From Jaapia argillacea MUCL 33604 (lineage: Eukaryota; Basidiomycota; Agaricomycetes; Jaapiales; Jaapiaceae): a stretch of 64,000 nt of DNA. Position 1 is the stretch's first letter. Each line of letters begins with the position of its first letter. Shown here in pieces: positions 14,001-46,239 of the stretch. The notes below the pieces were generated by a model. It did not search any database. It was not told the DNA's origin and was given only the letters and a program-made list of their open reading frames with translations. A program made the position numbers and the translations under genes. Location of the stretch: assembly GCA_000697665.1 (NCBI GenBank), contig KL197709.1, forward strand, positions 519,597 to 583,596, read 5' to 3'.

Positions 14001-17000
14001 TCATCTATGGCCGGCGCCGGTGTTGTCCTTGGACAACTTTATGCCTCGCACCGCTACGGTGATGCTAAGCGACTGAATTACTTGTTGGAATCTCACCTGC
14101 GCCTCATTCGGGTTGTACTCAACTGCAAACAAAAGACGTCGACGTCCGGAACATGTTTGCTGGAGCAAGTCCTATGTAGCTCAGGGAACGCCAGTGCTTC
14201 GATGAGCCGATCGAAGTCAGACCCCATTGACGTGTTATTCTCATACGTGGGGGACAGAGGCTCTGGCGTCGTCGTGCCTCTGGAGGCCACACGAGTCCTT
14301 TTTGCTCTTTGTTCGTCTCTTCGATCGACTCCGCAACCCCCAAGCTTCATCGCCCACCTGTCAAACCCGGAAGCAGTTGTTGCATCCCTTGTCAGAATCG
14401 TTCAGCACCCTTATGATGAACTATCCCTCCGGAATGGCGTATGGAGTTTCATCTCGTTGGCGGTGGTCAGTGATCCTGCACTAGCGAGTCTCTTCGTTAC
14501 AGGGAAATTCCGCCTTCCAGATATCAAGGGGAAGGGGAAGGTAACGGATGCGAATAAATCGTCGGAGCCCAAGGACACGTCAACATCTTCGAATGCCACG
14601 AAGCCCGCTAGCGCCATTGAGGCTGCGTCAGAAATGCTTGGAAATTGGCATGAGCTATGGGAGATGAATCCGCAGTTGTTGGCGTCCGTTCTCCGGTTTT
14701 TGAACGTGGTATGGCAGCACGGGCTGGAACATCGATCTGTCCTCCAACCGACAAGACAAGATCCCAAATTCTGGGAGCGGCTAGTCTTGATCATCGTAGA
14801 AGAACTCGGGCCACATCCGGACTGCCGAGTTGACAGTTTTCTACAGGTTGACGGTGTTCGCCGATCTCGATTCCACGAAGCTGTGTCTGCTCATGCCTAC
14901 CGCACCGTCGTCAAGGCCCACGTCCTCCAAATAATTGCATTGGACATGGAACTGGATGCGAAGTTCAACGGCGCCGCATCGTCGACTGAGAAGCCTCACA
15001 GTTATCGCGCCATCGAGAATGTTTTGAAGAACGAAGATCAAGTCTCGGAATACGTCGCTGAGGCGGCTTCATGTGTTTTCGACCCAATCCTCCACGACGA
15101 GTTTACGGAGCTCGTCAAAGTCGACTTCCCGGCCTTGACAATGGATCAACTGCAATCTCAGGAGCCCATTCTCGAACGCGAGTTTGGAGACGACTTCACA
15201 TTCTCTACATATCTTCTACGATTCCGCTTGCAGCCATTCCGCTTTCCCAGGGATGCGCTTGCTGAGCAGGCCGACGAGATCGAAAAGATCGTATCATCGA
15301 TTAACCTCAATCTATCCCTCTCCCATTCGCAAATTGGCCTCGCCCAAGCGTGGCAGCTGCTACTAAGGCGAAGCACTCCATTCCTTCGCGGGGTTGATTC
15401 GGTTCGGTCAGTTTTCCTCGGTATGGTTGCGACCATCTCAGGTGACGCTGCTGCCGAGAAACGATCAGGCGACATGATGGCAACAATGCACGGTGAACGA
15501 CTGTCCTTGCTATTGTCGTTGATTGAAGTGGCTTGGTTTTCGACCAATGACAAGAAGGAAGAAGTTCAACATTTCATCACTTTCGTGAAGAACCTCTCTG
15601 GGATCATCCAAAATCAAACATTGTCGCCAGCAAGATCCTTCCTCGGGTCGTTTACGGTTCCATTTCATCGCGCCGTCCTACAGATGATATACTTCTGCGC
15701 CAGACATTGTCGCAACCTTGCCCGACGACCAAAGGTTCTCCAAGCTGATCATCGCCTTACAATTGCGTCGTTCTTGGAAGCGAGCTTGGCACTCACGATT
15801 GATGCCCTGCGGGTCGTATTCGACCTGGCTCGCAGCAGGCTTGATGTCGAACTTGACCAGGACATGGAACTTTTGGTGGCCGCATTTGAACAGTGTATTG
15901 GTCCAGAAATCAGCCCGTCGTCCACATTCTGGTTAACGCGTTGTCAAGAAACAGACGTCATTCGAGCCAGTTTCGAACTATTCGTCAAAATGGACTTCAG
16001 CGGTCTCTCAGAACTGGCTCTCCTCAGAGCCCGCCGACGACCTCTATATGCAACTCACGTTCTCGGCTTCCACACGGCTTTGGCAAGTACTCAATCCGGG
16101 GCGGAACGTCTAGCGAGTGAAGGTCTCCTTGTAGCCTACACCAACAATCAGTTGACTACTACGATCGGTAGAGGTCTCATCGACGTCGTCATACCCGAGC
16201 TACCAGTGGATAGAAATCCCGCACATCGCTCGTACTGTGCCATGATGTCAATCGTTGCGGGTGTCACCACCTCCCTCAGCCGACAAAATCACTACCTGGA
16301 CGCAGAAGTTTGTGGTTTCGTGCAACTCTTCGGCGACCAAATCGCCAGGACGTTGTCGTGGACAGTTGGAGATCCCCTCACACTCGCGTTGGTGGAAGAA
16401 ATGGAAAAGACCGTCAATCTATTCTACGGTTTAGCGGCGAGTGTGTCTTCGGCGAATAATGACACCATCGAGAAGGTGCTTCGTGGCTTCAGCACCAGTG
16501 CACTCCTACTGCTGCAACAACTAAACTACGCCCTGACACATCCAAACCACCTTGAAAGTCTCCTCGAGCCAATCACGGCGGAGGAGCGTCAGCAACTCGA
16601 GAAGGATGCTAGGACATCAACTTCGCAAGCCTCAGAAGTCATCGATCCGACCAAACGACCGTTTCTCACTAGCGTCGTTCACAAGCTCTTCAGGCTGACA
16701 AGTTCCTTACTGTCGACATTGATCACGATCAGTAACGCTGAGAAAGTCTTAATTGGAGATCAAGAAGATTGGCCAGTGAAAGAGGCTCTCGTATATCCGG
16801 TGGGTCTGGATCCCTGGCTTCCGTCCATCACCTTACTCAACGCATCATCTAGCACTCGAAGGTCGTCGTCGGTGAGCGGGCATCTTTAGGAACTTTGCTG
16901 GAGCTTGGCAACTGTACCTTGGACGTTCTTCGACTGCTGTCAGGGCATCCTGCGGGGCAGGCCATCACGTCCGCGTCGTTCTCTTTGTCGACGTATGACA

Positions 17001-23060: not shown

Positions 23061-25338
23061 AATGACTGTCGACGAAGGCCTTGATACTATCGTTACTCGT
23101 CTTGCACATCAAGACAAGGTTCCTTGGTACAAGAAACCTAACCTCAGAACACTTTACCTCGTCTTCCTTCCGACATGCCTCGGTGTGGAGATGACCAGCG
23201 GGTATGACTTTTATTGATATCATATTCATTGACTGAAGCTCGACTTATTGACAGCTTCGACTCCTCGATGGTCAATGGCCTCCAAGCCGTGGGCACTTGG
23301 GACACATGCACGTTTTGACATCATCGTTGCCTTCCAATTGATCTTGACTGAGATGTTTTGGTCGCTTTAGTTTTCAACCACCCGCGATCTGCAATCCTGG
23401 GTCTCATCTCAGCCATGTACTCGCTTGGAGCAGTCTGTGCGCTTCCCTTCGTTCCCATCATTAGCGACAGATTAGGCCGAAGGCGATCGATTGTACTTGG
23501 GAGTCTTTTCATGCTCATCGGAGCTATCCTCCAGGCAGCGTCCCAAAACTGTACGTGCTTTTCTTCTTCGGCTTGGTGGTATTAACTTGGTTTGTGGCGT
23601 AGTCGCCATGTTCATCGTTTCCCGATTTATTCTCGGGCTTGGTATACCCTTTGCAATCATCGCCGCTTCATCTTTGATTGGAGGTCAATCTTTTGCCTTC
23701 CTTTATCCGAAATATCCGGTACTGATTTTTTGTCTGGTAGAGCTTTCCCATCCTAAAGAACGTCCCATCGTCAGTTCCCTCTTCAATTCTTGCTATTTCA
23801 TCGGTTAGTTTCCTGGGTCATGCCGTCCACTTCCGTTTGCTGACAACCACAAATAGGATCCATCGTCGCCGCAGGTGTAACTCTGGGTACTTTTGCCATG
23901 CCCACGAATTGGGGTTGGCGAATTCCCTCAGTCCTTCAAGTCATTCCCAGCATTCTGCAACTCACATTCATCTGGTTCCTCCCCGAATCACCTCGATGGC
24001 TTGTATCCAAAGGTCGCGGTCCCGAAGCATTTGCTATCCTGGCTAAATATCATGCCGAGGGCGATACCAATTCGGAGTTTGTCAAGGCTGAATTTGCGCA
24101 GATTGAAAAGACACTGGAGTTGGAAATGGAAAATGCCAAGAGGAGTTGGAGAGAGTTGTTTGGTACGGCTGGGATGAGGAGGAGAGTTCTCATCGGATCA
24201 TTTTTAGGGCTTGCTACGCAGTGGAGCGGCAACGGATTGACTTCGTCAGTTTAATCTGCCGGAATTTTGATTTGGCTGACTAACGTTTTTCGCTCCCTCC
24301 AGGTACTTCTTGGCCCGTATCCTTGATAACATTGGAATCCACGACAATCGGACAAAGAATCTCATCAACGTGGCCATGTCATGCTGGAGTTTCGTCAACG
24401 GAACTACCATTGCCCTCACTGTCCCCCGCCTCAAACGTAGAACTGCATACATGGTGCGTCTGTTCGGTGATAGTGCCTCGATACCTTGGATATCTGATAT
24501 TGCGAAAGACTTGCACGATCTCCCTGTTGCTTATCTTCACCGGGTGGACGGTCGCCAGCGCTCGGTACGCAATTACCGGGGATAAGGCACCATCCCGCGC
24601 CGTCATTGCGTATGTCTATGCTCGTGCAACCCTTACAGTCGCTGATCGGATCCTATTCTTTGATCAGCTTTATTTTCTTGTACAGTCCTGCATACAATAT
24701 CGGTTACAATGCTATGTCCTATAGTGAGATGCTTGTTACCGCCCTAACACTTTTGACTGGCATTCTGATCCAGTGATGACTTGCAGCTTTCCTCGTGGAA
24801 ATCTTCCCATTCCATGTTCGATCGAGAGGACTTACGATCTTCCAATGGTTCAGTCGACTAGCTACTTTTTTCAACCAATTCGTCAACCCTATCGGGATTG
24901 CGAACGCAGGTGAGCAAACGCGACCATACTCAATGTCGACCAGGGTTCTCATGTCATCGTTTCGTTGATTGCATAGGGTGGAAATACTACATCAGGTTCG
25001 TCATAATCGGATTGTTTTCTGACATCTACGGCTAAGCCAAGGTCATCATAGCTATTGCGTCTTTCTGCTGTTTGAAGTCATCTTCGTCTACTTCCTGTTC
25101 CCAGAAACGTCCAACAGAACTTTGGAAGAATTGGCCTTCCGTACGTCGTGTCTTCGTCAAGCTTTTGATGCGATACTGATGTAGTCCATTAAACGTAGTT
25201 TATGAGGATGATAAACTCCAGGAGCAGCAGAAACGTGTTGAGCACGAAATCCATGAGATCCATGTCGAGGATCTGCAGCACAGAGAGAAGGAGGATGGGA
25301 TAGAGCATGCTTACATTGAGGACGTTCGGACCCGATAA
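23061..25338 (+). CDS. MFS sugar transporter (sugar porter family)
   Basis: A 12-helix plasma membrane transporter that moves hexoses or disaccharides, probably with protons. Signatures in order: MTSGFDSSMVNGLQAV, then SLGAVCALPFVPIISDRLGR and RRSIV (loop 2-3), SRFILGLGIPFAIIAASSLI, LSHPKERPIV, WFLPESPRWLVSKGRGPEAF, AFIFLYSPAYNIGYNAMSY, FPFHVRSRGLTIFQW, FVNPIGIANAGWKYY and PETSNRTLEELAFLYEDD. About eleven exons join cleanly; for example the junction ATTGC/CTTTATT gives AFIFLYSP and restores the family sequence. The first intron after GTWDT fits the frame only with a GC donor (or a frame break) near 23308. The C terminus is a charged tail rich in Glu and His. The substrate is not readable; lactose-permease-like and hexose porters look similar. 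Confidence 0.88.
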
Positions 25339-25755
25339 GGGGATACGGAACGTCGTGAAAGACGCATCTCTGTGGTTATGATGCATGTATTTGTACGGTT
25401 CCTCCAGGGGAGTATGGTTACAGTTGTTACAATTTGCATCGGGTCGTTCTGGGTCTGGCTTCGGTATGGTTTGACGTTCAACTTCCGTGTTCCTGCCATT
25501 CGCCAGCTGCCTCATGTACTTAACCTAGGGGTCCTGTTCATTATGGGATTGGTCGTTGGGACCAGTACATGCAAAGGCGTGATTTGTTTTAGGTCGAAAC
25601 CCAAGGATCGGCTTCCTCTGTTATTTGGGGCTGATCATTGACTTTCACATGAAATTCCCGACGGCTCGCCGGTTATCCTCTCAGTCATCGCTTGAACAGA
25701 ACATCCATCATGGTCTTTCCCTCCTCCATTCCCGGATCCCTGAAGATATCCCATC
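25339..25755. other. Intergenic, promoter side of thioesterase 1
   Basis: No gene is seen. Near its end lies the upstream element shared with other array members (25661-25680). The rest shows no recognisable structure. Confidence 0.5.
25661..25680 (+). promoter_or_regulatory. Shared upstream element, thioesterase 1
   Basis: The sequence CTCGCCGGTTATCCTCTC matches, with substitutions, the element in front of copies 2, 3 and 4. It lies about 80 bases before the start codon, closer than in the others. Confidence 0.4.
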
Positions 25756-26656
25756 ATGTCTCCACCTTCGTCCGAAACCTTTGACCCCAAAGAACTCCCG
25801 AGCCCCTATCCCCTCCTCCAACCACTATCCCCGTCCGAATCTTCGTTGATAGCAGGAAATGCCAAACCGGAAACGAAACGGGTCGTTACCCATTGGCTAC
25901 ATTTGTTCATGCATAGAGGGTCAGGATTTGCTGATAGTGTTGGGGGGAAAGTTGAGGTTACCGAGATTTCGGTCTATCCAAAGGCTGAGGAAGTGGAGAG
26001 GGTAGAAGGGAGGGTCGTTTGTGAAGTTACTGTCACTCCGGGTACGTCATTTAATTGATGAGATGTTGGTTGTAAACTCTGACTGGGCGTTTTTCGGTTC
26101 AGATATGTTGAACGCGATGGGAAATGTTCACGGAGCGTGTTACATTTATCTTATCGACATGTTCGTCCGATTGCTTCCCCTCGCGAAGCACCTGTCTTAT
26201 GAGTTCAAATCTTCCCCGTTTAGCTGCTCCTCTTTGCCGTTGTCTGTCATTGGAAAGGAAGCTGGTAGAGATGGACAACCCGGAGTCTCCCAAAGTCTCA
26301 ACACGGTGTTTCACGCACCGTCGCAACTGTGAGTGTAACACAGAGAGCCCTACGAGCCTCTACCTCTCATACAATGGCCGATTCGGCCACCCACTCATCG
26401 GCCATCCATTCCCCCTATTTTGCGTAGGGGTGATCGCTTGAAAATCGTGAGCACCTCAATAACTGTTGGTGTCAGGGTGATGTCAGCTCGTTGTGAGGTC
26501 AGTCCATTCTTTCAATTTACCTGCTCTGTAAACAGTTTCTGAACCTACGAGTGAACTGTCGTTTCCTTCCTAACTTAGGTTTGGAACGTCACACGCCATC
26601 GTCTGGTGGCGTCTGGTGTTCATGCGAAGATGGAAGCTTCCCCAGCAAAGCTATAG
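25756..26656 (+). CDS. Hotdog-fold thioesterase-like protein, array copy 1
   Basis: Hotdog thioesterases of the PaaI/ACOT13 branch cleave acyl-CoA or related thioesters as tetramers. Five exons: the first ends VVCEVTVTPG, the second reads DMLNAMGNVHGACYIYLIDM, the third SVIGKEAGRDGQPGVSQSLN and TVFHAPSQL, the fourth GDRLKIVSTSITVGVRVMSA and RCE, the fifth VWNVTRHRLVASGVHAKMEA up to SPAKL. The family HGG at the active site is HGA here; the following Asp is kept. Every intron sits at the same place as in the other copies, so the array arose by DNA duplication. It is the most diverged class I copy. Confidence 0.85.
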
Positions 26657-27378
26657 CAATATTCAATTGCGACCTCCGAAGTCCCCGACTTCGCGGGGGC
26701 AACCGTACATCGTTATCAGAATCGTTGCACTTTTACAACAAGTCCTTCTCTATACGAATAATCGCATTCCCATCCGATATTTGGGGACTGGCTCAGCTTG
26801 CCATACGCAGCCCGGGATCAAGTCATTAACCAGAAGCTGAATGGCGGTATTGATCTCGCAGTTCATTGATATATGCATGTCTCATCTACGCATGAGATAT
26901 CCACCTGCTCCGGGATCGCAGAGGCCGAGTCCTTGATCTACCACCTCGCATTCACCCATTATATGGCTGCTCTTGATTCGGGCTCAGGCTTCATATTTCA
27001 GCAAGCCCGATGGGAACTAAACCATGTCTTCGTAGGACGATAGGTGATGCAACTTCGCTACCGTTCGTCGTGACCCTGTACGACTTCAGAGAGCGGGGAA
27101 CCTTGCTTCCAGCTCGACTTTAGGGGCGTCGGGCTGACTATGGAGGGTTGGGAATGTGCGTTTACTTACTATCCTTCTGATCTCGATGCCCGAACATATT
27201 TGGATTTGTGCGCGCGATTGGGAGGATCGCGCGGTTATCTACCCCAAGTGTCCGAGCTGACCGGTGTTTCATCAACTGGTCTCCTCTCCTCTTTCCAGTA
27301 CCATCGTGCCCATTTATTAGGACAGCAGCTTCTCATTTAACTCCCCTCATTTTGAAGAACAGGAGGCCCAGGGATACC
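26657..27378. other. Spacer between array copies 1 and 2
   Basis: No supported gene. Frames are short on both strands. The shared upstream element lies at 27226-27243. Confidence 0.5.
27226..27243 (+). promoter_or_regulatory. Shared upstream element, thioesterase 2 relic
   Basis: TCGCGCGGTTATCTACCC resembles the element before copies 3 and 4 and lies about 140 bases before the lost start codon. Confidence 0.4.
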
Positions 27379-28262
27379 ATTTCCTCAAAGCTATCCTCCT
27401 CGAACCATACTTTCCCCTCGTCAAAACCTACCTCCATTCCGGAATCCGTCCCCTCAATCTCCCAAGCCTCCCAAATCCCTGGAAGTGCTTCACCAGAGGT
27501 TATGCAACTTACTCATTAATGGTTTCGGCTCATGCCATGGTTTGGAGTTGGGTGTGGAAGTTGGGAAGCGGTTGGTTTTGAGTGAAGTTTCGATTAGGAA
27601 GAATGGGGAGGGGAGGGTGAAGGAGGAGCGTAGGGTTGTTTGTGAGATTGATGTTAAGACTAGTGTGTGAATTTCTTTGGGCAGTGGGGAGTGCTTTGGT
27701 GTCTGAGAAACCGTTGTGTTGGGAATGAAGATATGTTGAATGGAGGAGGGAATATGCATGGGGCGTACTCTACTTATTTGGTTGATATTTACGTCTCTAT
27801 TAACGGTCTATGCATCGCTGATATTCATATTGATGGTACCAGGTGCACTTCACTACCTATAGTCGCTCTCAATAAACATAAAGGGAGTGAAGACCCCAGT
27901 TCAGGCGTCTCTCAAGCTATCAACATGATGTATCACTCCCCTGCTCGTCTATACGTATCATGTCTATCATCTATCTGTCGGCTGACTTGAGCTCATAACC
28001 AATATGGTTGGTGTTTACAGAGGCGACAGATTGAGAATTGTCTCGACGATAATCGATAACTATGGGTGCGGATGTCGTCTCGATACGAGGTACGTATGTC
28101 GCATTCATTCTCACTCTCGTTAATTCATCCGAGTTTGTTTTGCCTTGAGTCGGCGTGCTTACTTATTGAGCTTTCATAGATATGGAATACGACATATCGT
28201 CGTCCAGTGCATCTGGAGTACATATCAAGATGGAAGCATCCACGCCTATATCGAAGCTATGA
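27379..28262 (+). pseudogene. Decayed hotdog thioesterase, array copy 2
   Basis: The five-exon plan of the array can still be traced: SQASQIPGSASPEVMQLTH, KRLVLSEVSIRKNGEGRV, ERRVVCEIDVKT, then DMLNGGGNMHGAYSTYLVDI, CTSLPIVALNKHK, SGVSQAINMMYHSPARL, GDRLRIVSTII and ASGVHIKMEAST before the stop. The start codon seen in the sister copies (ATGTCCTC) is ATTTCCTC here, at 27379. Frames break near 27515, in the fourth exon near 28060 and in the last exon near 28225. I infer a dead copy, closest to copies 3 and 4. Confidence 0.8.
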
Positions 28263-28429
28263 TGTAGTTATGTCTGACTAGACTCTGGTTGCGATTGGGA
28301 TTCGCAGCTTTCGGAGCTCGTGTTTGCCTGCGCCCGACCATTAGTCTGGCGAGGGTGAGCTCCCTGTACACGAAGACGAACGGCTATCGAACTATTGAAT
28401 CCATTGATGTGAGCATTGAGAAGAGCAGA

Positions 28430-28458
28430 GAAATGACCACGCGGTTATCTAATCTTAT
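28430..28458 (+). promoter_or_regulatory. Shared upstream element, thioesterase 3
   Basis: CCACGCGGTTATCTAATCT sits 155 bases before the start codon. Together with the preceding GAAGAGCAG about 20 bases upstream it is nearly repeated in front of copy 4 at 29615-29652. Confidence 0.5.
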
Positions 28459-28594
28459 CCTGTCGGCATTCGACCTGGCGCCTTCCCATCCCACCAAAGA
28501 ACCCTGTCCATCCCATATCACTAGATTGAGCACCTAAGCCGTGCCCTCCCCCCCCCCATCTATCAATCATATCCTATATCCACCACGTGCACCA

Positions 28595-29449
28595 ATGTCC
28601 TCTAAGTTACGCTCCACTCCCAAGCCCATCCTCACCCTCGCTGCCGCCTCCCAAATCCCAGGCTCAGCTCCCGCCGAGATCAAACAAGTAACTCACCAAT
28701 GGCTTCGAATCATTTCCTCTCTTGGCGGGTTTGGAGGGAGTATTGCGAAGAGACTGGTTTTGAATGAGGTTGGGATTAGGAAGGTTGAGGATGAGGAAGG
28801 AAAGGAGGAGTGTAGGGTCGTTTTCGAGGTTGAGGTTACACCTGGTACGTGAATTTCTTTTGAATTGTTATCTCTATAGATTCTGGATGTTGGCTGAACT
28901 GGGATGTGGAGATATGTTGAATGGGTCGGGGAGTATCCACGGAGCGTGTTCTGCGTACTTGGTGGATACGTACGCAACGCTTTCATCGATTCAGAGTCCT
29001 CATAACGGTGTTTTGGTTCTTCTCATCTTCCTAGATGCACATCTCTACCCATCTCGGCTCTCAATAAATACAAAGGCAACATTCCTAGCCCAGGAGTCTC
29101 TCAAGCTATTAACATGGTGTATCACTCTCCCGCCGGGTTGTACGTCTCAACTCTTTTTTTACCATCTGGTTTTGCTCGTTGTACGTCCTCAGTTGGTGCT
29201 TACATTATGATCTCTTATAGGGCAGACAAACTACGAGTTGTTTGTACGACTCTGAGCGTAGGTGCGCGTGTCATGTCTTCTCGATGCGAGGTACGTGTCC
29301 ACCCACGATACCGACACATCGTTGGGCTTATGACCATCGGTTGAACACCCCTTACACGCGAATAGATATGGAACCAAACACATCATCGCCTCGTCGCTTC
29401 AGGTGTTCATATCAAGATGGAACCGTCTGCACCTACTCCCAAGTTATAA
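28595..29449 (+). CDS. Hotdog-fold thioesterase-like protein, array copy 3
   Basis: An intact five-exon copy. Exon 1 runs from MSSKLRSTPKPILTLAAASQ to EVEVTPG; exon 2 reads DMLNGSGSIHGACSAYLVDT; exon 3 CTSLPISALNKYKGNIPSPG and VSQAINMVYHSPAGL; exon 4 ADKLRVVCTTLSVGARVMSS and RCE; exon 5 IWNQTHHRLVASGVHIKMEP to PTPKL. The first intron starts GTACGTG and later ones GTACGC, GTACGT and GTACGT. The active-site motif is HGA, with the Asp of YLVD retained. An in-frame ATG at 28541 is possible, but copy 4 aligns from 28595, so I use that. Product of about 180 residues, a normal length for this family. Confidence 0.88.
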
Positions 29450-29614
29450 GGGGAGCGGTTTGCTGATTGCTGGGCTCTTTGGGCGGGTGGACGTTAGTAC
29501 TTACAGCAGACCGGGCACGCTTGGTGGACGGTCATAGGAATTCGGTATTATTGGTAAAGATGAGGTGAAAGGATACGACACTTGGTGTGAACGTCGATGC
29601 GCGATGTGACGAGT

Positions 29615-29652
29615 GTGAAGAGCAGGGAGTACCCACGTGGTTATCTAATCTC
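29615..29652 (+). promoter_or_regulatory. Shared upstream element, thioesterase 4
   Basis: GAAGAGCAG followed by CCCACGTGGTTATCTAATCTC; the core lies 136 bases before the start. In this copy the first half is a perfect CACGTG E-box, where copy 3 has CACGCG. Confidence 0.5.
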
Positions 29653-29774
29653 AGGACACCGGCATCTGTGCAACCGGAGTTCTTCCTCCCACCACATCGT
29701 GTATCATGTCCATCCCTCATCACTGACCTTCTCCTTCTCCACGTACCCTCTCCTTTCCTCCGCATCCTCTCCCC

Positions 29775-30588
29775 ATGTCCTCAAAACTACCCTCCAACCT
29801 CCCCATCCCCACCTCCGAAATCCCAGGCACAGCTCCCCCCTCAATCAAACAAACCACCTACCAATGGCTTCACACCATCTCCTTTCTCGGTGGGTTCGGA
29901 TCCGACATCGCTAAACGTTTAGTTTTGAGTGAGGTGGGGATTAGGAAGGTGGAGGATGAGGTGGGGAAGGAGGAGTGTAGGGTTGTTTGTGAGGTTGATG
30001 TGACACCTGGTACGCGGATTTCTTCTGAATGTCATCTCTTTGGAATTTGGAGGTTGGCTGAATTGTGGTGGTTGTGGAGATATGTTGAATGGAGCGGGGA
30101 ATATGCATGGAGGATGTTCTGCATATTTGGTTGATATGTACGCATCGAAGACGCTTTCACTCCCCCCCTTCCCCCCTCTTATCTGAATGACCTTTGTTCC
30201 ACCGCGTTTGCAGGTGCTCGTCGTTGCCTATATCAGCGTTCAACGAATACAAAAACAACATATCAAGTTCCGGCGTCTCTCAAGCTATCAACATGGTATA
30301 TCACTCTCCAGCCTCTTTGTACGTTACTCCCCTCAGTCGCGTTTGGGGTCGAGGCTAATTGGGTGGTGGATAGGGGAGATAAATTGAGGATCGTCTCTAC
30401 TACTATGAGTGTAGGCGCTCGTGTCATGTCTTGTCGATGTGAGGTAAGCAACCGCCGAACCGTTCTCTACTTATCCCAGTCGTTCATGCATGAGCCTTGA
30501 ATAGATTTGGAACGCGACTCATCGGCGGTTGGTAGCTTCTGGAGTTCACATCAAGATGGAGCCGTCGGTGCCTGCTCCGAAGCTTTGA
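29775..30588 (+). CDS. Hotdog-fold thioesterase-like protein, array copy 4
   Basis: Intact copy with the same five exons. It begins MSSKLPSNLPIPTSEIPGTA, goes on IAKRLVLSEVGIRKVEDEVG and VVCEVDVTPG, then DMLNGAGNMHGGCSAYLVDM, CSSLPISAFNEYKNNISSSG, VSQAINMVYHSPASL, GDKLRIVSTTMSVGARVMSC, RCE and IWNATHRRLVASGVHIKMEP to VPAPKL. This copy keeps the canonical HGG followed by an Asp eight residues on, as in ACOT13, so it is one of the two best candidates for an active enzyme. Introns are 50-70 nt. No targeting peptide is evident, so a cytosolic place is likely. Confidence 0.9.
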
Positions 30589-30932
30589 TTAGGATGGGTG
30601 GTTGCTTTGTTTGGTCGGGAACGTCGACCAGTGGGATCATTTGGATCACTTTGTGGACAATGGTAGGAAGTGGATGGTAGTAGACACCCGATCTTTGTAT
30701 GAGATCGTAGATCTAGAAAAATATATGCGGCCACTGGAGCGAAGACATGGCTGGCAGCCTGATAGCCTGACAACGACGAGACGTTAGAGACAGTGGCACT
30801 CGCAATGAATCGCCGAGAGGCAAAATTCTCGCATGAGTTCGAAACATTCTCTCGAATAAATTTCGTTGTCCACAATCTGGAACATCCTGAGATCCAATTG
30901 GGTATTATCATTATGCAAATGATACAGTGAGA
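30589..30932. other. Spacer between convergent copies 4 and 5
   Basis: Tail-to-tail spacer of 344 bases. I see no gene or repeat in it. Confidence 0.5.
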
Positions 30933-31749
30933 TTATAATTTTGAGGTAGGTGGAGCTGAAGGTTCCATCTTGATATGTACGCCGGATGCTACTAGTCGAT
31001 GGTGTGTCTGGTTCCAGATCTACATAAGCGAGAGGTACGGGTATCAGTTGGGATTTTGGATGATTGAGGGAGGGAAGGAAGGTTGACGGACTTCGCAGCG
31101 GGAAGACATTACGCGTGCGCCTACTGTGATCGTCGTGCTCACTATACGAAGATGGTCTCCCCTGAAGGACACGACAGATGAGATAAAGATTGGTTATGGG
31201 GAGGGGAGGGGAAGGTGAGACGTACTCTGTGGCGGGTGAATGGTATACCATGTTGATGGATTGAGAGACTGCCATGTTTACGAGGTTGTTTTTGTGTTTG
31301 CGGAGACCGGCGATGGGGAGGGAGGAACATCTGTGGAGTTGGAATCGTCGGTCGTTTAGTATGGAATGAGAAGGGACTCAAGAGGGAGGAACGTACGTGT
31401 CGACCAAAAAAGCTGAACAACCTCCATGTATACTCCCCGCTCCATTCAACATATCTTCACCTCACATCAACACTAGTAACCACCTTGAACGAAACCGCAC
31501 GGAAAACGTACCCGGAGCGACACCAATCTCACAAACAACCCTACACTCTTCCCTCCCCTGTTCTTCCTCCTTTTTCCTGATATCAACAGCGGTGAGAACG
31601 AGTCTGTTGGCGATGGAAGAAGCGAAGGAGGTTTGGGAGCCTGAGATGAAGGTTAGCCATTCGGAGGTAAGGAGTTTGACTTCGGGGGAGGCTGAGCCGG
31701 GGATCTTGGAGGCTTGTTCGAGGTCAGGGGAGGTGGGGGAGGTGGACAT
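30933..31749 (-). CDS. Hotdog-fold thioesterase-like protein, array copy 5 (inverted)
   Basis: The only array member on the minus strand. Exon 1 begins MSTSPTSPDLEQASKIPGSA and ends CRVVCEIGVAPG; exon 2 is DMLNGAGSIHGGCSAFLVDT; exon 3 CSSLPIAGLRKHKNNLVNMA with VSQSINMVYHSPAT; exon 4 GDHLRIVSTTITVGARVMSS and RCE; exon 5 IWNQTHHRLVASGVHIKMEP to PTSKL. All splice sites match the plus-strand copies. HGG and the Asp are both intact. The inversion places its promoter back-to-back with that of copy 6; a CACGTG lies at 31869-31874 in the shared 545-base spacer. Confidence 0.88.
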
Positions 31750-32294
31750 GATGGGGGGAGGACCTGGAGGAGAGGGAGGATTTGATTTTGGCGGGCATGG
31801 TTTAGAGGAGGAATATGAAAGACCGGAGGAGCGGATGTTGGAAAGCCGGAGTGGACGATAAGATGAGCACGTGGTTTAGTCTCGATATCCGACGGGATGC
31901 GGGGACCCTCGATGACTTGGATGCGTCCACAGCATTAATTTTGGAGCTGAACGTGACAGAAAAGTGCTGTATGATTTGCAGGACTTGTCGGCACAGTACT
32001 TTGTCAAGACACCAGGTGTCGGTGTTGACTTGCTCCTCGGATAGATGAACAATCCATCCCTGAGCCCGACCACCCGCTTACCTTTTCCACTGTGTTACCG
32101 TCCCTTTAGGACGTCTGTGTTCCGGTGCACACGATTACCGGAGGAAGGTCCTTGGGAAGAGCACTCACGAACCCAAGCTACTCTCACGAAACCCAGGCAC
32201 TACTTCTCCCGCCCAAACACACCCCGCAGCTCCCACCAACACCTTAAACTCTCCATCATAATCCTCTCGTAACCCTCATTCCTCATCAAACTTA
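31750..32294. promoter_or_regulatory. Divergent intergenic region between copies 5 and 6
   Basis: It separates two outward-facing thioesterase genes. It holds a CACGTG E-box at 31869-31874 followed on the plus strand by GTTTAGTCTC, which partly resembles the element of copies 3 and 4 but in the opposite sense to copy 5. No other gene is seen. Confidence 0.35.
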
Positions 32295-33197
32295 ATGTCC
32301 CCCCCACACCAACCCCCACTGGCATTCTTCCGCTCCTTACCCCAACCTTGCGATCCACCACCAACAGAAGTACGGAATATAAAAGGGAATATATCGGAGG
32401 GAGATAAACAGTTGAATGTGAACGTCTTGGCTCATTTCGTTAGTGGGGGGAAGCAGTTTGGGGTGGGTGTTGGGAGGGGTGTCAGGTTGGTTGAGATTTG
32501 GATCGGTGATGGGGTTGGTGGGGGTGAGAGTGGGATGGAAGTGGAGGTAGGCAAGGCGAAAGAGGCCAGAACGGTTTGTGAGATCGTCGTTACCGAAGGT
32601 GAGTCTTGCTTCCATATCCTAACATCATCCCCGCTTATTGTTGTTCGCCCGGAAGAGATGGCCAATTTATTTGGCGTGTTACACGGTGCCTGTGCAGCTT
32701 ACATCGTCGATCTGTCCGTCTCCCTCCCTCTCCTCCCTCTCCCCACCTCTAACGTGCATACTTATTCACCCAGATGTTCCTCCGTCCCCCTCATAGCCCT
32801 AGGTATAGCAAACGGCCTAGACTACTCTGGAATGTCCCAATCTATGCACCTAATATGGCATGACGCAGCTAAAGTGTACGTCCTTTCCCTTTCTCTTTCC
32901 TTCCCTCCGTACTTCGCTTAGATTTGGGGCAGGGGAACGACGTTGAAGGTAGTTGGGACGAATGTATCGGTTGGTGGGAGGATCATGGCTGCGCGATGTG
33001 AGGTCAGTTACCTTCAAGTCGGTGTGATGTTGAAACCTTTCGTGTTGTTCCTCTTTACACTACTCCCAGGTCAATGATTCTAACGTTTTGAATTTTTATT
33101 TAGATCCGTGACAAGGCAACGGATCGGTTATTCGTATCGGCGGTTCATACCAAGATACACCCCGGCGCGAAACGAAAGTCTACCGTCAAGTTATAGG
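32295..33197 (+). CDS. Hotdog-fold thioesterase-like protein, array copy 6 (class II)
   Basis: A second sub-type of the same family with the same intron positions but a different N terminus: MSPPHQPPLAFFRSLPQPCD and later LNVNVLAHFVSGGKQFGVGV. Exon 1 ends VCEIVVTEG; exon 2 has EMANLFGVLHGACAAYIVDL; exon 3 CSSVPLIALGIANGLDYSGM and SQSMHLIWHDAAKV; exon 4 GTTLKVVGTNVSVGGRIMAA and RCE; exon 5 IRDKATDRLFVSAVHTKIHP to STVKL. The motif is HGA with Asp kept. It shares AFFRSLP with copy 7 (PFFRSLP), so these two form one class. It is tail-to-tail with the first HAM1 gene. Confidence 0.85.
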
Positions 33198-33415
33198 CGA
33201 GATCAACGAATTCAAGTTGAGTCTGGGTAGATTCTGAACCCTATCATCATTTGGTATATCGGCAGAGTCGCTTCGTTTCGAATGTGGTACGGTGGGAGTA
33301 GTAAAAAAATGTATTCCGTCGATCTAATAACGATCCATCCACACATAAGATAATGTGCACTGGGCTATCACTAATTACTCTGCACCAAAAGCGTAACTGT
33401 CCGAGGACGAACCCA

Positions 33416-34237
33416 CTATGATTCTGCTTTTTTCTTCTCATCAAGAGATATGAGGTATTCCCTAACTTTAGCCAACGCTTTATACCGATGCGAAAGAGCA
33501 TTCTTCTCTTCAATATCCATCTCCGCATACCTACCCAAAGCACCCATCAGCGTCCCATCCACCACCCCCCTTCCCCCCAAAAAAAGGAAAGCAAAACTCA
33601 CGTCTTCCCAGTCCCCTCGACCTCAAAAATCGGATCCCACCCAAACGTCCCCCCGCCTCTAGCAGGCACGATCCTCCCCTCCGTCCTCCCCTCAAACAAA
33701 ACCACCTCCTCCCCAGGCCCCGGACAATACGCAAAAGTACATAACGCATAAGCTCTTTTGTCTTCAAAACCGGATAGGAGAGTGTTGAGGCCGGTGTGGC
33801 CTAGAGCTTGGAGGAAGTGTTTGATGTAGGGACCTGGGAGGTCGTGAAGGGCTGTGAAGCAGAGGGCTGTATCTTCTGTTAGGGTTGGGCAGGAGAGGTG
33901 GGTGGAGGCGGAGTGGGCTTTTGCGGTTGCGATTTGGGGGGGTGTTCCTTGGATTTCTGGGACTGGGGGCCGGGGGCCGATGGAGGGAGAGTGAGGTTAG
34001 TGGGAGGAGAATGTGAGTGAGGAGAACGCGTGTGAGTTGGTGTGCGAGTGAGGGATAAGGAGGACGTACGGTCAAGATCTCTCGATTCGATCTCGATTGG
34101 ATGACCCTTGGATAAGATGGCTTTGACTTCTTTCAGTTTGTTCGCGTTGCCTGTTACGAACACTATTCTCTTTTCTTAGTTGGTGGGGTGTGGGGTGTAG
34201 CGAGTGCCCAGGACGGACCTAGTGGTTTTGAAGACAT
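33416..34237 (-). CDS. HAM1: Inosine triphosphate pyrophosphatase (HAM1 family), copy A
   Basis: ITPase hydrolyses ITP, dITP and XTP to monophosphates and so keeps deaminated purines out of DNA and RNA. A short first exon gives MSSKPL, joined to [20 protein letters not shown], the substrate-binding start of the family. Next come [85 protein letters not shown] with [10 protein letters not shown], and after a last intron [19 protein letters not shown]. All hallmark residues are present, including the Asp of EDTAL and the FGWDPIF and SHR motifs. The length is about 190 residues, normal for the family. It lies between thioesterase copy 6 and its own paralogue. Confidence 0.92.
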
Positions 34238-34488
34238 GTTGGTGGGAGGAGTGAGATGAGAGGGAGATGGTGGTGGTGAGGGTGATGGTAGGAGATTGGG
34301 ATGTGTATCATTAATGGTTAGATGGGGCGTTGTTGAGATGACGAGATGGGTTTATTCTCGCTCGCAATCAATCCTCCCACAGGCTTCAAAGAAATCCCTC
34401 AATGTTGATATTTCCAGTGTATTAGTTATGAAGGCTGTATCTCGTCTGGGTATGGCATCCACATCCTCACAAGATCTAAAGAAGCAAA

Positions 34489-35384
34489 TTATACATCCAT
34501 AGACTCGAGATATCTCCTCAGTTTGACCAGAGCTCTATACCGATGAGAGAAAGGCATCTTTTCTTCAACTTCCATCTCTGCAAAGCTGTTAGATGCGACG
34601 AGTTTAGGTTAGAGGGTTGTGGTACGCGATCGGCAATACATGGGGGGTTGAAGAAGAAGGGTCGAAGACGAAGGTAGACTGGTGAAGGTGTGGAAAAGAG
34701 AGACGAGAGAGACGGGGTGAATTAAGAGAACTCACGTCTTACCAGTCCCTTCCACCTCAAAAATCGAGTTCCAACTAAACACATTCATTCCTCTCGCATG
34801 TACGATCTTCCCTTCCGTCCTCCCTTCGAACAACACCGGTTCACAATCCGGACCACCAGAGTAGGCGAATGTGCAAAGTGCGTGGGCTGTGGTTGTTTGG
34901 AAACCTTTGAGTAAGGTGTTTAGTCCTGGTTATGTGTGTGTGAGAGGCGTCAGGTCGGTGGTGGAGGGAAAGATGTACCGTCGTTCCCTAAACCCTGAAA
35001 GAAGTCTTTGATGTAAGGCCCCGGCAAACCACCCAAGGCATCGCAACAGAGAGCTGTATCTTCTATGATACAAGGTCCACCGATGGCTTCCGCAGCTCGG
35101 CTACATTTATCTCGGGCGACTTCCCGAGTCGTCCCTTGAATCTCAGGGACTATCCAGAGAGAAAACCCGTGTTGGTATCCTCTGCAGCATAGGCATGAAT
35201 GGGAAAGACCTACGATTGAGATTAACGGATTTGATTACGAGCGATGAAGTTGAGGAGAGGATGCGGTTGACTTGATGGAGTTTGGTTGAGTTGGTGGTTA
35301 CGAAGACTGGGGCGGGTGATGTTGATGAGTGGTTGGATGCATATGTTTGATTGGGCTGGACCGACCGATTGGTGTTGAGGACAT
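34489..35384 (-). CDS. Diverged HAM1/ITPase paralogue, copy B
   Basis: A tandem duplicate of the neighbouring ITPase with the same exon plan: MSSTPI joined to [20 protein letters not shown], then [40 protein letters not shown] with [15 protein letters not shown], then [40 protein letters not shown] with FEVEGTGKT, and [19 protein letters not shown]. It stays open and spliced, but two family signatures are altered: [10 protein letters not shown] has become [10 protein letters not shown], and FGWDPIF has become FSWNSIF, which removes the nearly invariant Asp. The catalytic Asp of EDTAL and the SHR motif remain. I infer a changed specificity or early loss of activity. Confidence 0.82.
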
Positions 35385-35659
35385 CGAGCGGGAGTGGAGG
35401 GCGAGTTGACAATGCCGAGCCGACGACGGGTAGCTGTCTGCTGAGTTGTTGAGATGGTGATGTTTGCGATCGACAGCAGGGGAACATCTCGACATCCTCC
35501 AACGCAGCTCCGGCTTGTTCTGAAAGTTTACGATCCATCCCATGCTCGCATATACTCCCTCGCAACCCCCCACCATACAAAAAAATAGAGCCACTCACCA
35601 AACGGCCAATTGTTTTTGTTCTTCAAAAGTACACACCTTCGGAGATATGGCCACGAGAA

Positions 35660-36380
35660 TCTGTGAACTCCGGAAACTCAATCGATTCTCTGGAAATGCT
35701 CAGTGTTGCTGCAGACCTTGGTTCAGAATATTAATGAAATCATCCTTCTTCGTCCTATCTAGTACAAGTACGACCGAAAGAACTCGTGGTATCCTCGTCG
35801 CGTTCTCATACGCCTCTCTCCTCCGGCCTAGCCTTAAAATTCATCTATTCCTTCCCAACGCTTCCTACCCCAACCGCAACGGAATTCAGTACGATAGAGG
35901 GGGATTAGGTTGATTTGGTGGGCGTGGTGTAGAGGGAGAGGACGGAGGCGGGTTATTGTGTATGAGATCTTGGTGACTGAAGGTATGCTTTCTCCGAATG
36001 TCACGCTTCAACCGACGTGCATATACTCGAGTTGTGTTTTCTTATCGATGATAGAAATGGAAAATAGCGTGTGCTGCGTACCTCGTCAACTTACCGCGTT
36101 TTGCCTGTTGTAAACGCGTTATGTACCAACGACTTTACACTCGACTTGGACTTGGTTTCGCCCGAAATGCTCCAACTATACTTAGCCATCACCTATTTTC
36201 ATCCACCACGACTACTTTGCATTTAAGGGAACGCGGATCCATGTATGTCCCCTTGCCCTTATCATATCTCCACCGGGACCGATCCGCGTTTGTTAGGAAC
36301 GAGAAGGTGTTGTGTTACGGGATAAGAAGGAAAGGAAGTTATCGGAGTTTGGCCTTCGCCGAATCCTCCAGATGGGAATA
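35660..36380 (+). pseudogene. Decayed class II thioesterase, array copy 8
   Basis: Weak but ordered traces: VYEILVTEG near 35958-35985, equal to VCEIVVTEG of copy 6 and followed by a donor-like GTATGC; then near 36050-36110 a stretch whose frames give an IEMEN start and AYLVNLPRF in place of the family AYLVD; then, near 36290-36380, G-rich sequence. Frames are broken throughout and no first exon can be made out. It is the most eroded member of the array. I place its limits only roughly. Confidence 0.45.
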
Positions 36381-36516
36381 GGATAGGGAGAATGGGGTGG
36401 GGTCGCTGGTTTGTTACCTCCGAGGACTGGGGACGATCAAAGGATGCAGTGTGTTCTATTTCTGATACAAGTCATTTTGAACGGGGGTCCAGCGGTTGAG
36501 TATCGTAACAAGCACC

Positions 36517-37369
36517 ATGTCACCCTCCGAGTCCACACCAGAACACCCCTTACCATTTTTCCGATCCCTCCCTCATTCACCAGTAAATGTCGACGCGATC
36601 AAGTCGAATATGAAGAGGGAGGATAAGGAGTTGTTAGGGAATGTACTTGCGCATTTTTTGGTTGGGGAGGGAGGGGAGACTTATGGGGATACGGTTGGGA
36701 GGAGGATTAGGTTGGAGGAGGTTTGGGTTAGGGGTGGAGGTGGGGAGGGAGAGGGAGAGGAAGCTGAGAGTGTTTGTGAGATTGTGGTTACGAGAGGTCA
36801 GTTGTGTCTTATTATCGTTTGGCGCGCCGAGCTTTGGTTGACTTGGGTGGTTGGGTAGATATGACGAATGTGTATGGGACGTTACATTCTGTGTGTGCGG
36901 CGTACTTGCTTGACGTGTAAGCCTCTTCTCTACGCCCAAAAATCGAATTGCTATTGGAGATCAGTTGATGAGGGACTTTTAGGTGTTCGTCGATCCCGCT
37001 GTTGGCGATGGGGATCTCGAAGGGGTTGGATTATATGTCCGTGTCGCAGAATTTGAATTTGGTTTGGCATGGGAGTGTTGGTGTGTACGTTTCGCTCTCG
37101 CTTTTTCGTCTTTGTTGGTTGTGCTGATGGGAGTGGGTAGGGGAGAGACTTTGAAGGTTGTTGGCAGGAGTGTGTCGGTTGGTGGGAGGGTTATGACTTG
37201 TCGATGTGAGGTGAGTAGGACTTTCGGAGGCTTTGATCAGTTCAACTTCGCCTGAGAACGGTTGTTTTGTTCTTAGATGTATGAGAAGAGAACGGGAAGG
37301 ATATTGGCGTCGGCGCTGCATACGAAGGTTAGGCCTGGGTCGAAGGGGAGGCCATGGGCGAAGTTGTGA
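36517..37369 (+). CDS. Hotdog-fold thioesterase-like protein, array copy 7 (class II)
   Basis: Open five-exon copy: MSPSESTPEHPLPFFRSLPH, then LLGNVLAHFLVGEGGETYGD, ending VCEIVVTRG; exon 2 DMTNVYGTLHSVCAAYLLDV; exon 3 CSSIPLLAMGISKGLDYMSV with SQNLNLVWHGSVGV; exon 4 GETLKVVGRSVSVGGRVMTC and RCE; exon 5 MYEKRTGRILASALHTKVRP to PWAKL. The active-site HGG/HGA is replaced by HSV, the largest change at this site in the array, though the Asp follows at its usual distance. It may be a catalytically changed or inactive member. It pairs with copy 6 in class II. Confidence 0.82.
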
Positions 37370-38208
37370 GTGTGGAGAGTAAGGTGCGTATTGTGAAAAA
37401 GTTAGAGGGGTTAGGGCGTTGATAAGAGGTGGGGAAATATACTTACAGAATTCCAGAGGCTGCCAGGGACGGAGAATGGCCGTGGAGATGTTGAAATGTC
37501 GACTTGCTAATGTGTATATGTTATCGCCCTCTCTAAATCTCTCGAGTTTACCTGCTCGGCCCTCCTTCCCTCGGACACACAGAGCGACAGTAAAAACCTC
37601 GAGAAGATATCGTCCACGGGATACATGCCTGACCTTCCTTGCCGCCTTCGAATTTCCAGCTGAATTCCCTCCATATTTTTGGACCGCTTCTTCTACGCCG
37701 CATGCCAGGTGCCACGACAAAGAGCCCTCACATGTTCACCGGAAAGTGACACCCAAGCTCAGGTGAACGGTTCGCATGTCGTACACACCCGTTCCCTAGT
37801 GTCTGCCCACCGGGACGAAAAGCCCCGCCTATCGGGAAAAGAAATTGGGGGGTGGCACACGTGGCGCGATAGAAGACCCAATTAGGATAGGCATTGTTTC
37901 GGTTTCCTTGCCTCGCAGCCGCCAACTGCGAACCTCGATCACCCCCGGCTCTCCCTCAGCACCTCCGCCTCGTTCCTTCCAGCCTCGAGGCCTTATCCCT
38001 TCCCCTTAACATCTACCCGCACTTTTCTTGCTTGTTTTCTACACACGTACCTTCGCAACTACTAGCTTGGCTTCTCACTCGGAACGACTTTGCCTAAGCT
38101 TAACTCCGCTAATATCGTTCCCAGATCGCCGCCCCACTCGACTTTGCTCTGCTTGAAAAGTTTGCTCTCAGCCGAATTGAAGGGGTTTAGGGTATCGCGG
38201 ACGGAGAG
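37370..38208. other. Intergenic and BOI leader
   Basis: No supported gene. Minus-strand frames that enter it are shadows of copy 7. From 37900 the sequence becomes rich in pyrimidines, as in mushroom promoters and 5' leaders, up to the BOI start. Confidence 0.5.
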
Positions 38209-43462: not shown

Positions 43463-46239
43463 ATGTCACAAGCTCTTGAGGCGATTGAAAAATCGCTACT
43501 GACTGGCCAATGGCTCACCAATGGATCTGATGGACACAGCAGCGTGTTTGATATTGCGCGGGATGTCGTTGACGGAGCCTTTCACAAGGCCCTGACCGCT
43601 CCCCTTTCGCAGCAAATTTTCTCCGTGCGTGCTACGTGCTCCTCAGAGATTCTCGATCACCCTTTAGACGATTGGCTCAACAAATCTGATCCATCACTCG
43701 ACGACGAAATCGAAGACGAACTTCTGCACCTCACCCTCGCCGTTGCATGCCTACACGCATTCGTGCAAATCAATTGGACGGGTCCTGATCTTGATGTCAA
43801 ACCCCTCAACGTCCTCGTTTTTGCCTCCGGATCTTTCGCTTCCCTGAACGAGGACACCCTAAACCAAAAGTCAATCGCTGAGTTGACATGCTGTGGGGAG
43901 CCCGCGTATCACCTTACGCAAGGTGCTACCTTTTTGCGGCTCGCACAGATCTTAATTTCTGGACCCTATCGCCATTGTCGATCTGTTCCATGGTGGAATC
44001 TGCGAGCTTCGATGCTCCATCAGCAGATATTGGACGAACCCGTTGCAGTGCCCGAGAGCGTGTTCTCCGCTGTGGAACCATTAACCAGCTCCATAGCGGC
44101 CGACCCTGACCTCGCTGCTCGATTGCACTTGGAATGTGGACTGTTCCAACACTTCCTGTCCGATAACAAATCGGCCGCAGACTATTTTCTGCGGGCTGCC
44201 AAAGCATCCGACCTGCAGTACGAGCTCACGGGGGCGCTCGGCAAGCGAACGAAATACCAGCAGAACGAGATTAGCCAACTGGTCTTGCTAGCCGAGAGTC
44301 GAAGCAGAGATAGCGATGGACCTCAATCTGATAACGGTCAAGGCTTCCAGGACGCCAACACCTCCGCTAACACCTTCACCAAACTCCCAGAAACATTCCC
44401 TCTCAACGATGACACTTTATTGGAACAAACTGAATACACTCCATCGTCCACAGCCCTTCCTCGCTCTCGACTAAGTCATCTCGATCCCTCATCTCAGCCC
44501 GCATTACATCCCCTCGACCAATGTATCCTTCTCTCCCTATGCCTTAATGTGAAAAATATGTCCCCCTCGCATGGCCTGACGAATGAGCAGATGTCCGCCT
44601 ACGTCGCCAGGGTCGTCTCACATCCACGAAACTGGACCGTCCATACCATGGCTCTCCTCCTTCGGTCTCGATTAGAATCTTCCCGAACGCGAACCGTAGA
44701 GCGATCGACTTTGCAGCTACAGGCCCTAGTGGAGCAGATGCCCACCGCTGACTCGGCACTATCGGAAAGACTTTTGTACGTTCACGATATTCCTTTGCCA
44801 AGCAAGTGGGAGATGGAAAAGGAGCTGGCTATCCAGTTCCTGTCCTTAGGCGTCGTTAGATCCGCCTTAGAGATCTTTGAGCAGCTGGAGATGTGGGAAG
44901 AGGTAGTAAAATGCTGGATGTCGATGGGGAATCCAGAAAGGGGGCTCGAGATTGTTCGTGACCTACTTGAAGGGCGAAAAGCCGAAGCCGAAGAAGTCCT
45001 CTCCCGCGCGAAGACGACGACGACCGAGAGGCGGGAGACCCATAGTGTGGCGCGAGATGCCAAGCTGTGGTGTCTGCTCGGAGACCTTGAGCTCGAGAAT
45101 GCACAGGCACATTACGAAAAGGCATGGGTGATCTCTCGCCAAACCTCAGGGCGTGCCATGCGGTCTCTAGGAGGCCTTCATTTCAACCGCGGAGAATACT
45201 CCCAGGCCATAATGTGCCTTCGTCGAGCCGTCGCCATAAATCCCCTGTTGCATCGATCATGGTTCGTGCTGGGTTGCGCTTGTGTGCGCGAAGAGGATTG
45301 GGAAGGGGCGAGAGTGGCCTTTAGCCGATGCGTGGCGATCGACGATGAAGATGGTGAGAGCTGGAATAATTTGGCTAGCGTCTACTTGCGGATGGGTGAA
45401 GGCGAGGCGCCCGCCGATGCGATCGATCAGGGGGTGAGTGAATGTCCAGAAATATTGAATGACTAGTTCGATATTAACAGTGAAATCAGGACCTCGACGC
45501 CAACACTGAGGCAAGGAATGGACACGAGATCAAGAGAGTGCCATTCTCGAACAAATTATTAGCATTTAGGGCGCTCAAAGAATGCATAAAATACCGCTAC
45601 GAAGACTGGCGGGTGTGGTCCAACTATATGGTCGTTGCTATTGACGTTGGGGAGCTATCTGAAGCTTGCCGTGCGCTCGCTCGAATTGTGGAAGAGAAGA
45701 GTGGGAAAGTGGGCGGCGAGTGTGTTGACGAGGATGTTTTAGAGCGCCTGGTCAACGCGGTGACAAGGACTCCACTGAATGCGGATGATGCGGTCGAAGG
45801 TGACATCTCGGCTCATCAAACGCCGGTGAATCCCAGCGAGGGACGGGGGCTCTTCAGACGGGTTTCCGACCTCTTTGAACGCACAATCCTGCCTCGCGTA
45901 TCATCGCCTCGCATTTTCCGTGCATACGGGAGATTATTAACCTGGCAGTCGCGGTGGGACGAGGCCATCCGCGCATATTTGGATGGGTATCGATGCAGCT
46001 TGGCAGGGACGATGGAGAAGGGCGAGACAGATGTGAAAAGATGGCAAGAGGCTGTGGGGGAAGTCGAAGAAATTGTGGACCTCTTGAGGAATTTCGGCTC
46101 CAGGGTGGAAGGATCTAAATGGCAGTTGCAGGCACGCAGCATCGTTCGGACTTTCATTGGGCGAACACGAGATTTTGAAGACGAACCGGAATGGAATCGG
46201 TTGACCGAGTTGCAGGATGAGTTGCGGAAGGAAGAGTGA
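43463..46239 (+). CDS. TTC27: TPR-repeat protein TTC27 / Emw1 homologue
   Basis: The yeast homologue Emw1 is essential and linked to cell-wall integrity; human TTC27 has TPR repeats. Two exons (43463-45433 and 45490-46239) give about 906 residues. The conserved N-terminal half shows HLTLAVACLHAFVQINWTGP, CGEPAYHLTQGATFLRLAQI, LHLECGLFQHFLSDNKSAAD and GALGKRTKYQQNEISQLVLL. The C-terminal half holds the TPRs: EKELAIQFLSLGVVRSALEI, GGLHFNRGEYSQAIMCLRRA, WFVLGCACVREEDWEGARVA, ESWNNLASVYLRMGEG and AFRALKECIKYRYEDWRVWS. The single intron joins ..DQG to DLDANTEARNG in phase. The match runs over the whole length, so the assignment is good. It is followed tail-to-tail by a small unknown gene. Confidence 0.9.

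Follow-up and report, generated by a model that had tools for sequence, protein, structure and literature searches.

Why does Jaapia argillacea carry a block of similar thioesterase genes, and what might their products do? The block lies in a window of 64,000 nucleotides (C1:519597-583596 of the 43.7 Mb, 95-contig genome), and an earlier note made from this DNA had described it as an array of eight hotdog-fold thioesterase genes, six readable and two decayed, with two HAM1 duplicates inside. Gene models were rebuilt from the sequence, copy by copy, and positions are window coordinates unless a contig is named. The explanation that we favor, at a probability of about 0.7, is that the array encodes old, constrained peroxisomal acyl-coenzyme A (CoA) thioesterases of the THEM2/PaaI hotdog type, kept as a set whose members would differ in acyl preference.

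The array is real. It spans 25756-37369, from the ATG of c1 at 25756 to the stop of c8 at 37369, exactly where it had been placed, and it holds six intact gene models, five of them plus-strand (c1, c3, c4, c6, c8) and one minus-strand (c5), along with the decayed copies c2 and c7. There are no N bases within 25000-38000. The array members, the two HAM1/ITPase (inosine triphosphate pyrophosphatase) genes among them and one dispersed relative, d1, are as follows.

25756..26656, plus strand: c1, intact class I thioesterase, 5 exons, 198 amino acids, C-terminus AKL
27416..28262 (ends approximate), plus strand: c2, class I copy in decay, without a start codon and interrupted by a stop and frame changes; its last readable frame ends SKL
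28595..29449, plus strand: c3, intact class I thioesterase, 5 exons, 188 amino acids, C-terminus PKL
29775..30588, plus strand: c4, intact class I thioesterase, 5 exons, 183 amino acids, C-terminus PKL
30933..31749, minus strand: c5, intact class I thioesterase, reversed relative to the other copies, 5 exons, 185 amino acids, C-terminus SKL
32295..33196, plus strand: c6, intact class II thioesterase, 5 exons, 208 amino acids, C-terminus VKL
33416..34237, minus strand: Ha, HAM1/ITPase gene, intact, 4 exons, with the FGWDP motif
34489..35384, minus strand: Hb, second HAM1/ITPase gene, intact, 5 exons (one intron more than Ha), FSWNS replacing FGWDP
35897..36117, plus strand: c7, residual exon 1/2 region found by local alignment, nearest copy c8
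36517..37369, plus strand: c8, intact class II thioesterase, 5 exons, 200 amino acids, C-terminus AKL, Ser at the THEM2 Gly57 position
C8:360227-361173 (L009 4428-5374), minus strand: d1, dispersed intact relative, 233 amino acids, intron phases 1,2,2,0, C-terminus SRL

The six intact array copies share one layout: each is split into five exons by GT-AG introns 55-101 bases long, with intron phases 1,2,2,0, and each encodes a protein of 183-208 amino acids. Because intron positions are conserved among the copies, their origin by DNA duplication, as the earlier note proposed, is supported. The five-exon structure that it gave to every copy holds for the six intact genes and largely for c2; of c7, nothing beyond the exon 1/2 region is left to compare. 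The family was counted by protein searches of the whole genome because a genome search with PF03061 scores exons apart and misses the array genes; that search gave two matches (C84 and C1:2900908), with no array gene listed. Across the genome, the protein census recovered exons of the array and a single further clear locus, d1, whose product has an amino-terminal part about 40 residues longer than those of the array proteins. The queries were c4, d1, c8 and c1, with c3, c5 and c6 not among them, and the counts are lower bounds.

To what family do the proteins belong? PF03061 (4HBT) matched 7/7 intact proteins, the six of the array and d1, at an expectation value (E) of 0.01, and c4 (39.3 bits), c1 (37.2) and c8 (27.4) scored above its curated cut-off of 20.6 bits. 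A profile of the seven proteins, run against the PDB, retrieved four THEM2 sequences (best E 3e-14) and nothing else at E ≤0.01. By these matches the products are hotdog-fold thioesterases, in agreement with the first description, and THEM2/ACOT13 (PDB 2f0x, 3f5o, 2h4u, 2cy9, 4ord) is their nearest solved relative. TIGR00369 also matched all seven at E 0.01, with c4 at 35.0 bits against the 36.6 required. Bacterial PaaI (TIGR02286) is of the same superfamily and its profile matched 6/7 of the proteins at E 0.01, but c4 lies far under the equivalog cut-off (28.1 against 118.9 bits), and we do not file the Jaapia proteins as PaaI members.

The THEM2 active-site residues, as listed in Table 4 in the available part of PMC13114782, are Asn50, Gly57, Asp65 and Ser83. 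The hotdog core and most of these positions are kept: equivalents of Asn50 and Asp65 are found in 7/7 proteins, of Gly57 in 6/7 (Ser in c8) and of Ser83 in 6/7 (Thr in d1). From these residues catalysis is likely for most copies and doubtful for c8. Just after the Ser83 position the proteins diverge, reading VYHSPA in c3, c4 and c5, IWHDAA in c6, VWHGSV in c8, VFHAPS in c1 and FFHSPA in d1, and it is only these differing residues that suggest different acyl preferences. Unlike THEM2, the Jaapia proteins end in tripeptides of the peroxisomal targeting signal type 1 (PTS1), and six of the seven are encoded in a tandem array.

The C-termini are AKL (c1), PKL (c3 and c4), SKL (c5), VKL (c6), AKL (c8) and SRL (d1). 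All seven fit the PTS1 expression as applied to the basidiomycete Ustilago maydis in the available part of PMC11842775. By comparison, the expression fits 26/1374 non-terminal tripeptides within these seven proteins, 5/382 of those of the two HAM1 proteins, and the ends of 4/526 open stretches of at least 60 codons in the window; the C-termini of Ha and Hb do not fit it. The narrower consensus [SAC][KRM][LM], used in the available part of PMC8140964, fits c1, c5, c8 and d1 (4/7) and not c3, c4 or c6. Between the fold and the tripeptide lies a stretch that varies in length and sequence and aligns poorly, yet 7/7 proteins close with K/R-L, and the Leu codons differ among copies (CTA, TTA, CTT, TTG). 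Because the preceding residues vary and the Leu codons differ, selection at the protein level seems to maintain the end. The genome also has two matches to Pex14_N, a domain of the peroxisomal import docking machinery. A tetratricopeptide repeat protein encoded at 43463-45463 was weighed as a possible PEX5 near the array and, judged by its translation, set aside; it is probably TTC27/Emw1-like.

These ends bear directly on the likeliest alternative, that the proteins are cytosolic or mitochondrial THEM2-like thioesterases serving general acyl-CoA housekeeping, with a K/R-L end that was inherited and is no import signal. The nearest solved relative is THEM2, which to our knowledge is not known as a peroxisomal protein; PKL and VKL are weak signals, and the longer amino-terminal part of d1 also speaks for housekeeping. 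Against it speak the K/R-L in every copy behind a variable stretch, with differing Leu codons, and the fit of AKL, SKL, AKL and SRL, in four of the seven, to the narrow consensus. We consider the housekeeping alternative unlikely.

If the proteins are instead peroxisomal, the PTS1 receptor would import them, and they would assemble as hotdog oligomers. By analogy with THEM2, the equivalent of Asp65 would drive attack on the thioester, whose carbonyl would be bound by the Asn50/Gly57 region. The substrates would be acyl-CoAs that the peroxisome produces or processes, hydrolyzed in or after beta-oxidation with release of CoA and the acid, and the copies would have been retained as lineages came to favor different acyl groups.

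A comparable set has been described in Aspergillus niger. According to the available part of PMC8140964, hydroxycinnamic acid degradation in that fungus is tied to four induced thioesterases, TheA-D, and to genes of a CoA-dependent beta-oxidation that bear peroxisomal signals; the pathway acts on aromatic and fatty acids, and one of the four, TheC, has the PTS1 SKL. Single mutants in the thioesterase genes had few phenotypes (on m-coumaric and crotonic acid for theB, on erucic acid for theD), a scarcity that the authors ascribe to redundancy. The resemblance, one of description, lies in a group of thioesterases, induced in A. niger, next to a CoA-dependent beta-oxidation whose genes bear peroxisomal signals. 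Unlike the Jaapia proteins, TheA, TheB and TheD lack a recognised signal in what is available of that account, which also mentions no tandem array. A link of the Jaapia array to aromatic acid degradation is thus speculative, resting as it does on analogy. A more specific scheme would make the array a division-of-labor set, with differing acyl preferences and graded signals (SKL and AKL strong, PKL and VKL weak), that releases benzoate-type acids from CoA as the last step in the beta-oxidation of plant aromatic acids. We regard this scheme as rather improbable. A genome search with PF11895, which bears on whether J. argillacea has a white-rot lifestyle, gave one match, and that does not settle the lifestyle.

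Is the array instead the product of a recent lineage-specific burst under positive selection, for example for the detoxification of acyl-CoA or other thioesters, as the earlier note suggested? Eight copies within 12 kb, two of them decayed, point to birth and death and would suit such a burst. The distances do not. Protein identity is 78% for c3/c4, 66.5-67.8% for c5 to c3 and c4, 48-49% between c1 and the other class I copies, and 54% for c6/c8, and it falls to 34-37% between class I and class II, the same distance as that to the dispersed d1 (34-38% to the others). Among the 21 pairs of the seven intact proteins, analyzed by NG86, the closest is c3/c4, with synonymous divergence (dS) 1.10, nonsynonymous divergence (dN) 0.14 and dN/dS 0.13. 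The c5 protein gave dN/dS 0.12 with c3 and 0.15 with c4, and c6/c8 gave dS 1.40 and dN/dS 0.27. In the 19 pairs other than c3/c4 and c6/c8 dS exceeds 1.5 (infinite in four), and dN/dS, where finite, is a rough 0.12-0.42. With dN/dS below 0.5 wherever computable, the codon comparisons show copies under purifying selection, though whole-gene averages would miss positive selection at a few sites.

The comparison of introns and exons makes a recent burst slightly less likely still. In four gene pairs, each compared with 200 shuffles and with splice-site bases excluded, all 20 exon pairs are related (z 6 to 21), while 15/16 intron pairs align no better than shuffled at z 2. The sole intron pair above all shuffles is c3/c4 intron 1, which is clearly related (z 9.9, with 0/200 shuffles as good).

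The tree supports the two classes of the earlier note for the intact copies, with class I (c1, c3, c4, c5) at 95/95 and class II (c6, c8) at 97/97; the placement of c7 in class II, drawn from its likeness to c8 alone, is not certain. Branching within class I is weak (bootstrap 60 and 66), and a c1+d1 clade is disfavored, marginally, at p-AU 0.039. With THEM2 as outgroup the root is unresolved and 1/5 inner branches are starred, as against 2/4 without THEM2. A single local burst finds no support, given that class I, class II and d1 stand at roughly the same distance from one another and that synonymous sites have reached saturation or come close to it. By these distances the array comprises at least two old lineages, to which some tandem copies were added later, together with two decayed members, and a recent burst under positive selection is a very improbable account of it. 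That the array is an assembly artefact, a collapsed or chimeric repeat, is scarcely credible, because even the closest pair, c3/c4, is only 73-81% alike in aligned exon bases (19-27% differing), the introns are mostly unlike and the contig is 3.4 Mb long with no N in the region.

Several observations weigh against the peroxisomal interpretation. PKL in c3 and c4 and VKL in c6 lie outside the narrow consensus, and because of this 3/6 array proteins may be poorly imported or located in two compartments. The seven tails are homologous, so that the 7/7 fit is not seven independent events but perhaps about four old lineages. The Ser of c8 stands where THEM2 has Gly57. Saturation, or near saturation, of dS in most pairs leaves their dN/dS values, up to 0.42, rough. 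Finally, 3/4 of the A. niger thioesterases have no recognised signal in the available part of PMC8140964.

Might the class I genes share regulation as well as descent? A CCACGTGGTTATCT-like element, which joins an E-box-like and a GATA-like sequence, lies 91-191 bases upstream of c1-c5 (in c2, before its lost start).

25665..25678, plus strand: c1 upstream element, the weakest match
27227..27240, plus strand: c2 upstream element
28437..28450, plus strand: c3 upstream element, CCACGCGGTTATCT
29633..29646, plus strand: c4 upstream element, CCACGTGGTTATCT
31861..31874, minus strand: c5 upstream element, CCACGTGCTCATCT

The motif GGTTATC, which occurs nine times in the window, four of them upstream of c1-c4, was spotted by eye first, and 12 combinations (three lengths by four gene sets) were then compared with 60 shuffles each. 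For c1-c5 the best shared 14-mer scored 45/56 against a shuffle maximum of 42 and the best 20-mer 60/80 against 55; the best 30-mer, which uses another site in c1, scored 74/120 against 73. The set c3, c4 and c5 was above its shuffles at all three lengths. The set c1, c3, c4 and c5 was above its shuffles by a small margin, but the sites differed at length 14, as did the c1 site at 20 and 30; for c6, c8 and d1 a shared element was never above shuffles at the lengths tested. Shared descent could explain part of the likeness, and the element suggests, weakly, a common regulation of class I.

Of the decayed copies, c2 is the better preserved. Judged against c3 and c4 it has lost its start codon; exon 1 has an in-frame stop and a frame change, exons 4-5 have further frame changes, and its best tblastn match is c3 (E 1e-24). 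The c7 remnant is weak by tblastn (E 0.23). Its local score to c8 is 31.0, against a mean of 14.2 and a maximum of 18.0 in 60 dinucleotide shuffles, with lower scores to c4 (25.5), c6 (21.5) and c1 (21.0). This shuffle test is lenient, because one of two control stretches slightly beat its shuffles (17.0 against 16.5); the other was at chance (13.0, shuffle maximum 16.5).

The HAM1 duplicates inside the array are, as had been noticed, two genes, both intact and both on the minus strand. Six PF01725 exon matches were found in the genome, all in Ha and Hb, so that these are the only HAM1 genes found by the profile search; the main exon of Ha (110.4 bits) and two exon matches of Hb (51.8 and 40.4) are above the cut-off of 22.5 bits. 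Hb is 59% identical to Ha (112/189; dS 1.56, dN 0.35), has one intron absent from Ha, and matches the inosine triphosphate pyrophosphatase PDB 4f95 at E 4e-49. Where Ha and 4f95 have FGWDP, Hb has FSWNS, with Asn for the Asp of the motif. Neighborhood is the one link seen between the HAM1 and thioesterase genes. A literature search turned up no paper on HAM1 duplication in fungi.

Other loci came up in the searches. At C84:51605-51838 (L010) lies a different 4HBT gene that also matches 4HBT_2; its readable frame ends SKL, which makes it a further possible peroxisomal thioesterase. The 4HBT match at C1:2900908 was judged, on translation alone, to be of a different type. Matches at C6:1330534 (E 0.6) and C17:82369 (E 0.6 genome-wide) are weak and were not counted as family members. 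The stretch C17:82369-82479 (L012 1870-1980, plus strand) encodes 37 residues like exons 4-5 of c8 (46%) and crosses the intron position without an intron; it may be a decayed retrocopy or a chance likeness. Pattern scans of a prokaryote and a viral collection gave 9, 13, 39 and 7 stretches and no confirmed relative. By title and abstract start, with most subscription journals outside the coverage, no literature on such a thioesterase array in a mushroom was found. Elsewhere in the window, 11226-16889 on the plus strand is an uninterrupted open frame of 1887 residues matching Nup188; the genes modeled in the window have three or four introns each.

The earlier note was thus right in what it observed and partly supported in how it interpreted it: the shared C-terminal signal and the minus-strand orientation of c5 were absent from its account, and "detoxification" is less specific than the sequences permit. 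A conserved C-terminal tripeptide can hint at the compartment of a family annotated only as "thioesterase". With PTS1-type ends on all intact members, the tandem set would make thioesterase redundancy testable by block deletion: c1-c6 are contiguous, whereas c8 would need a deletion of its own that spares the HAM1 genes in between, no others of their kind having turned up in this genome.

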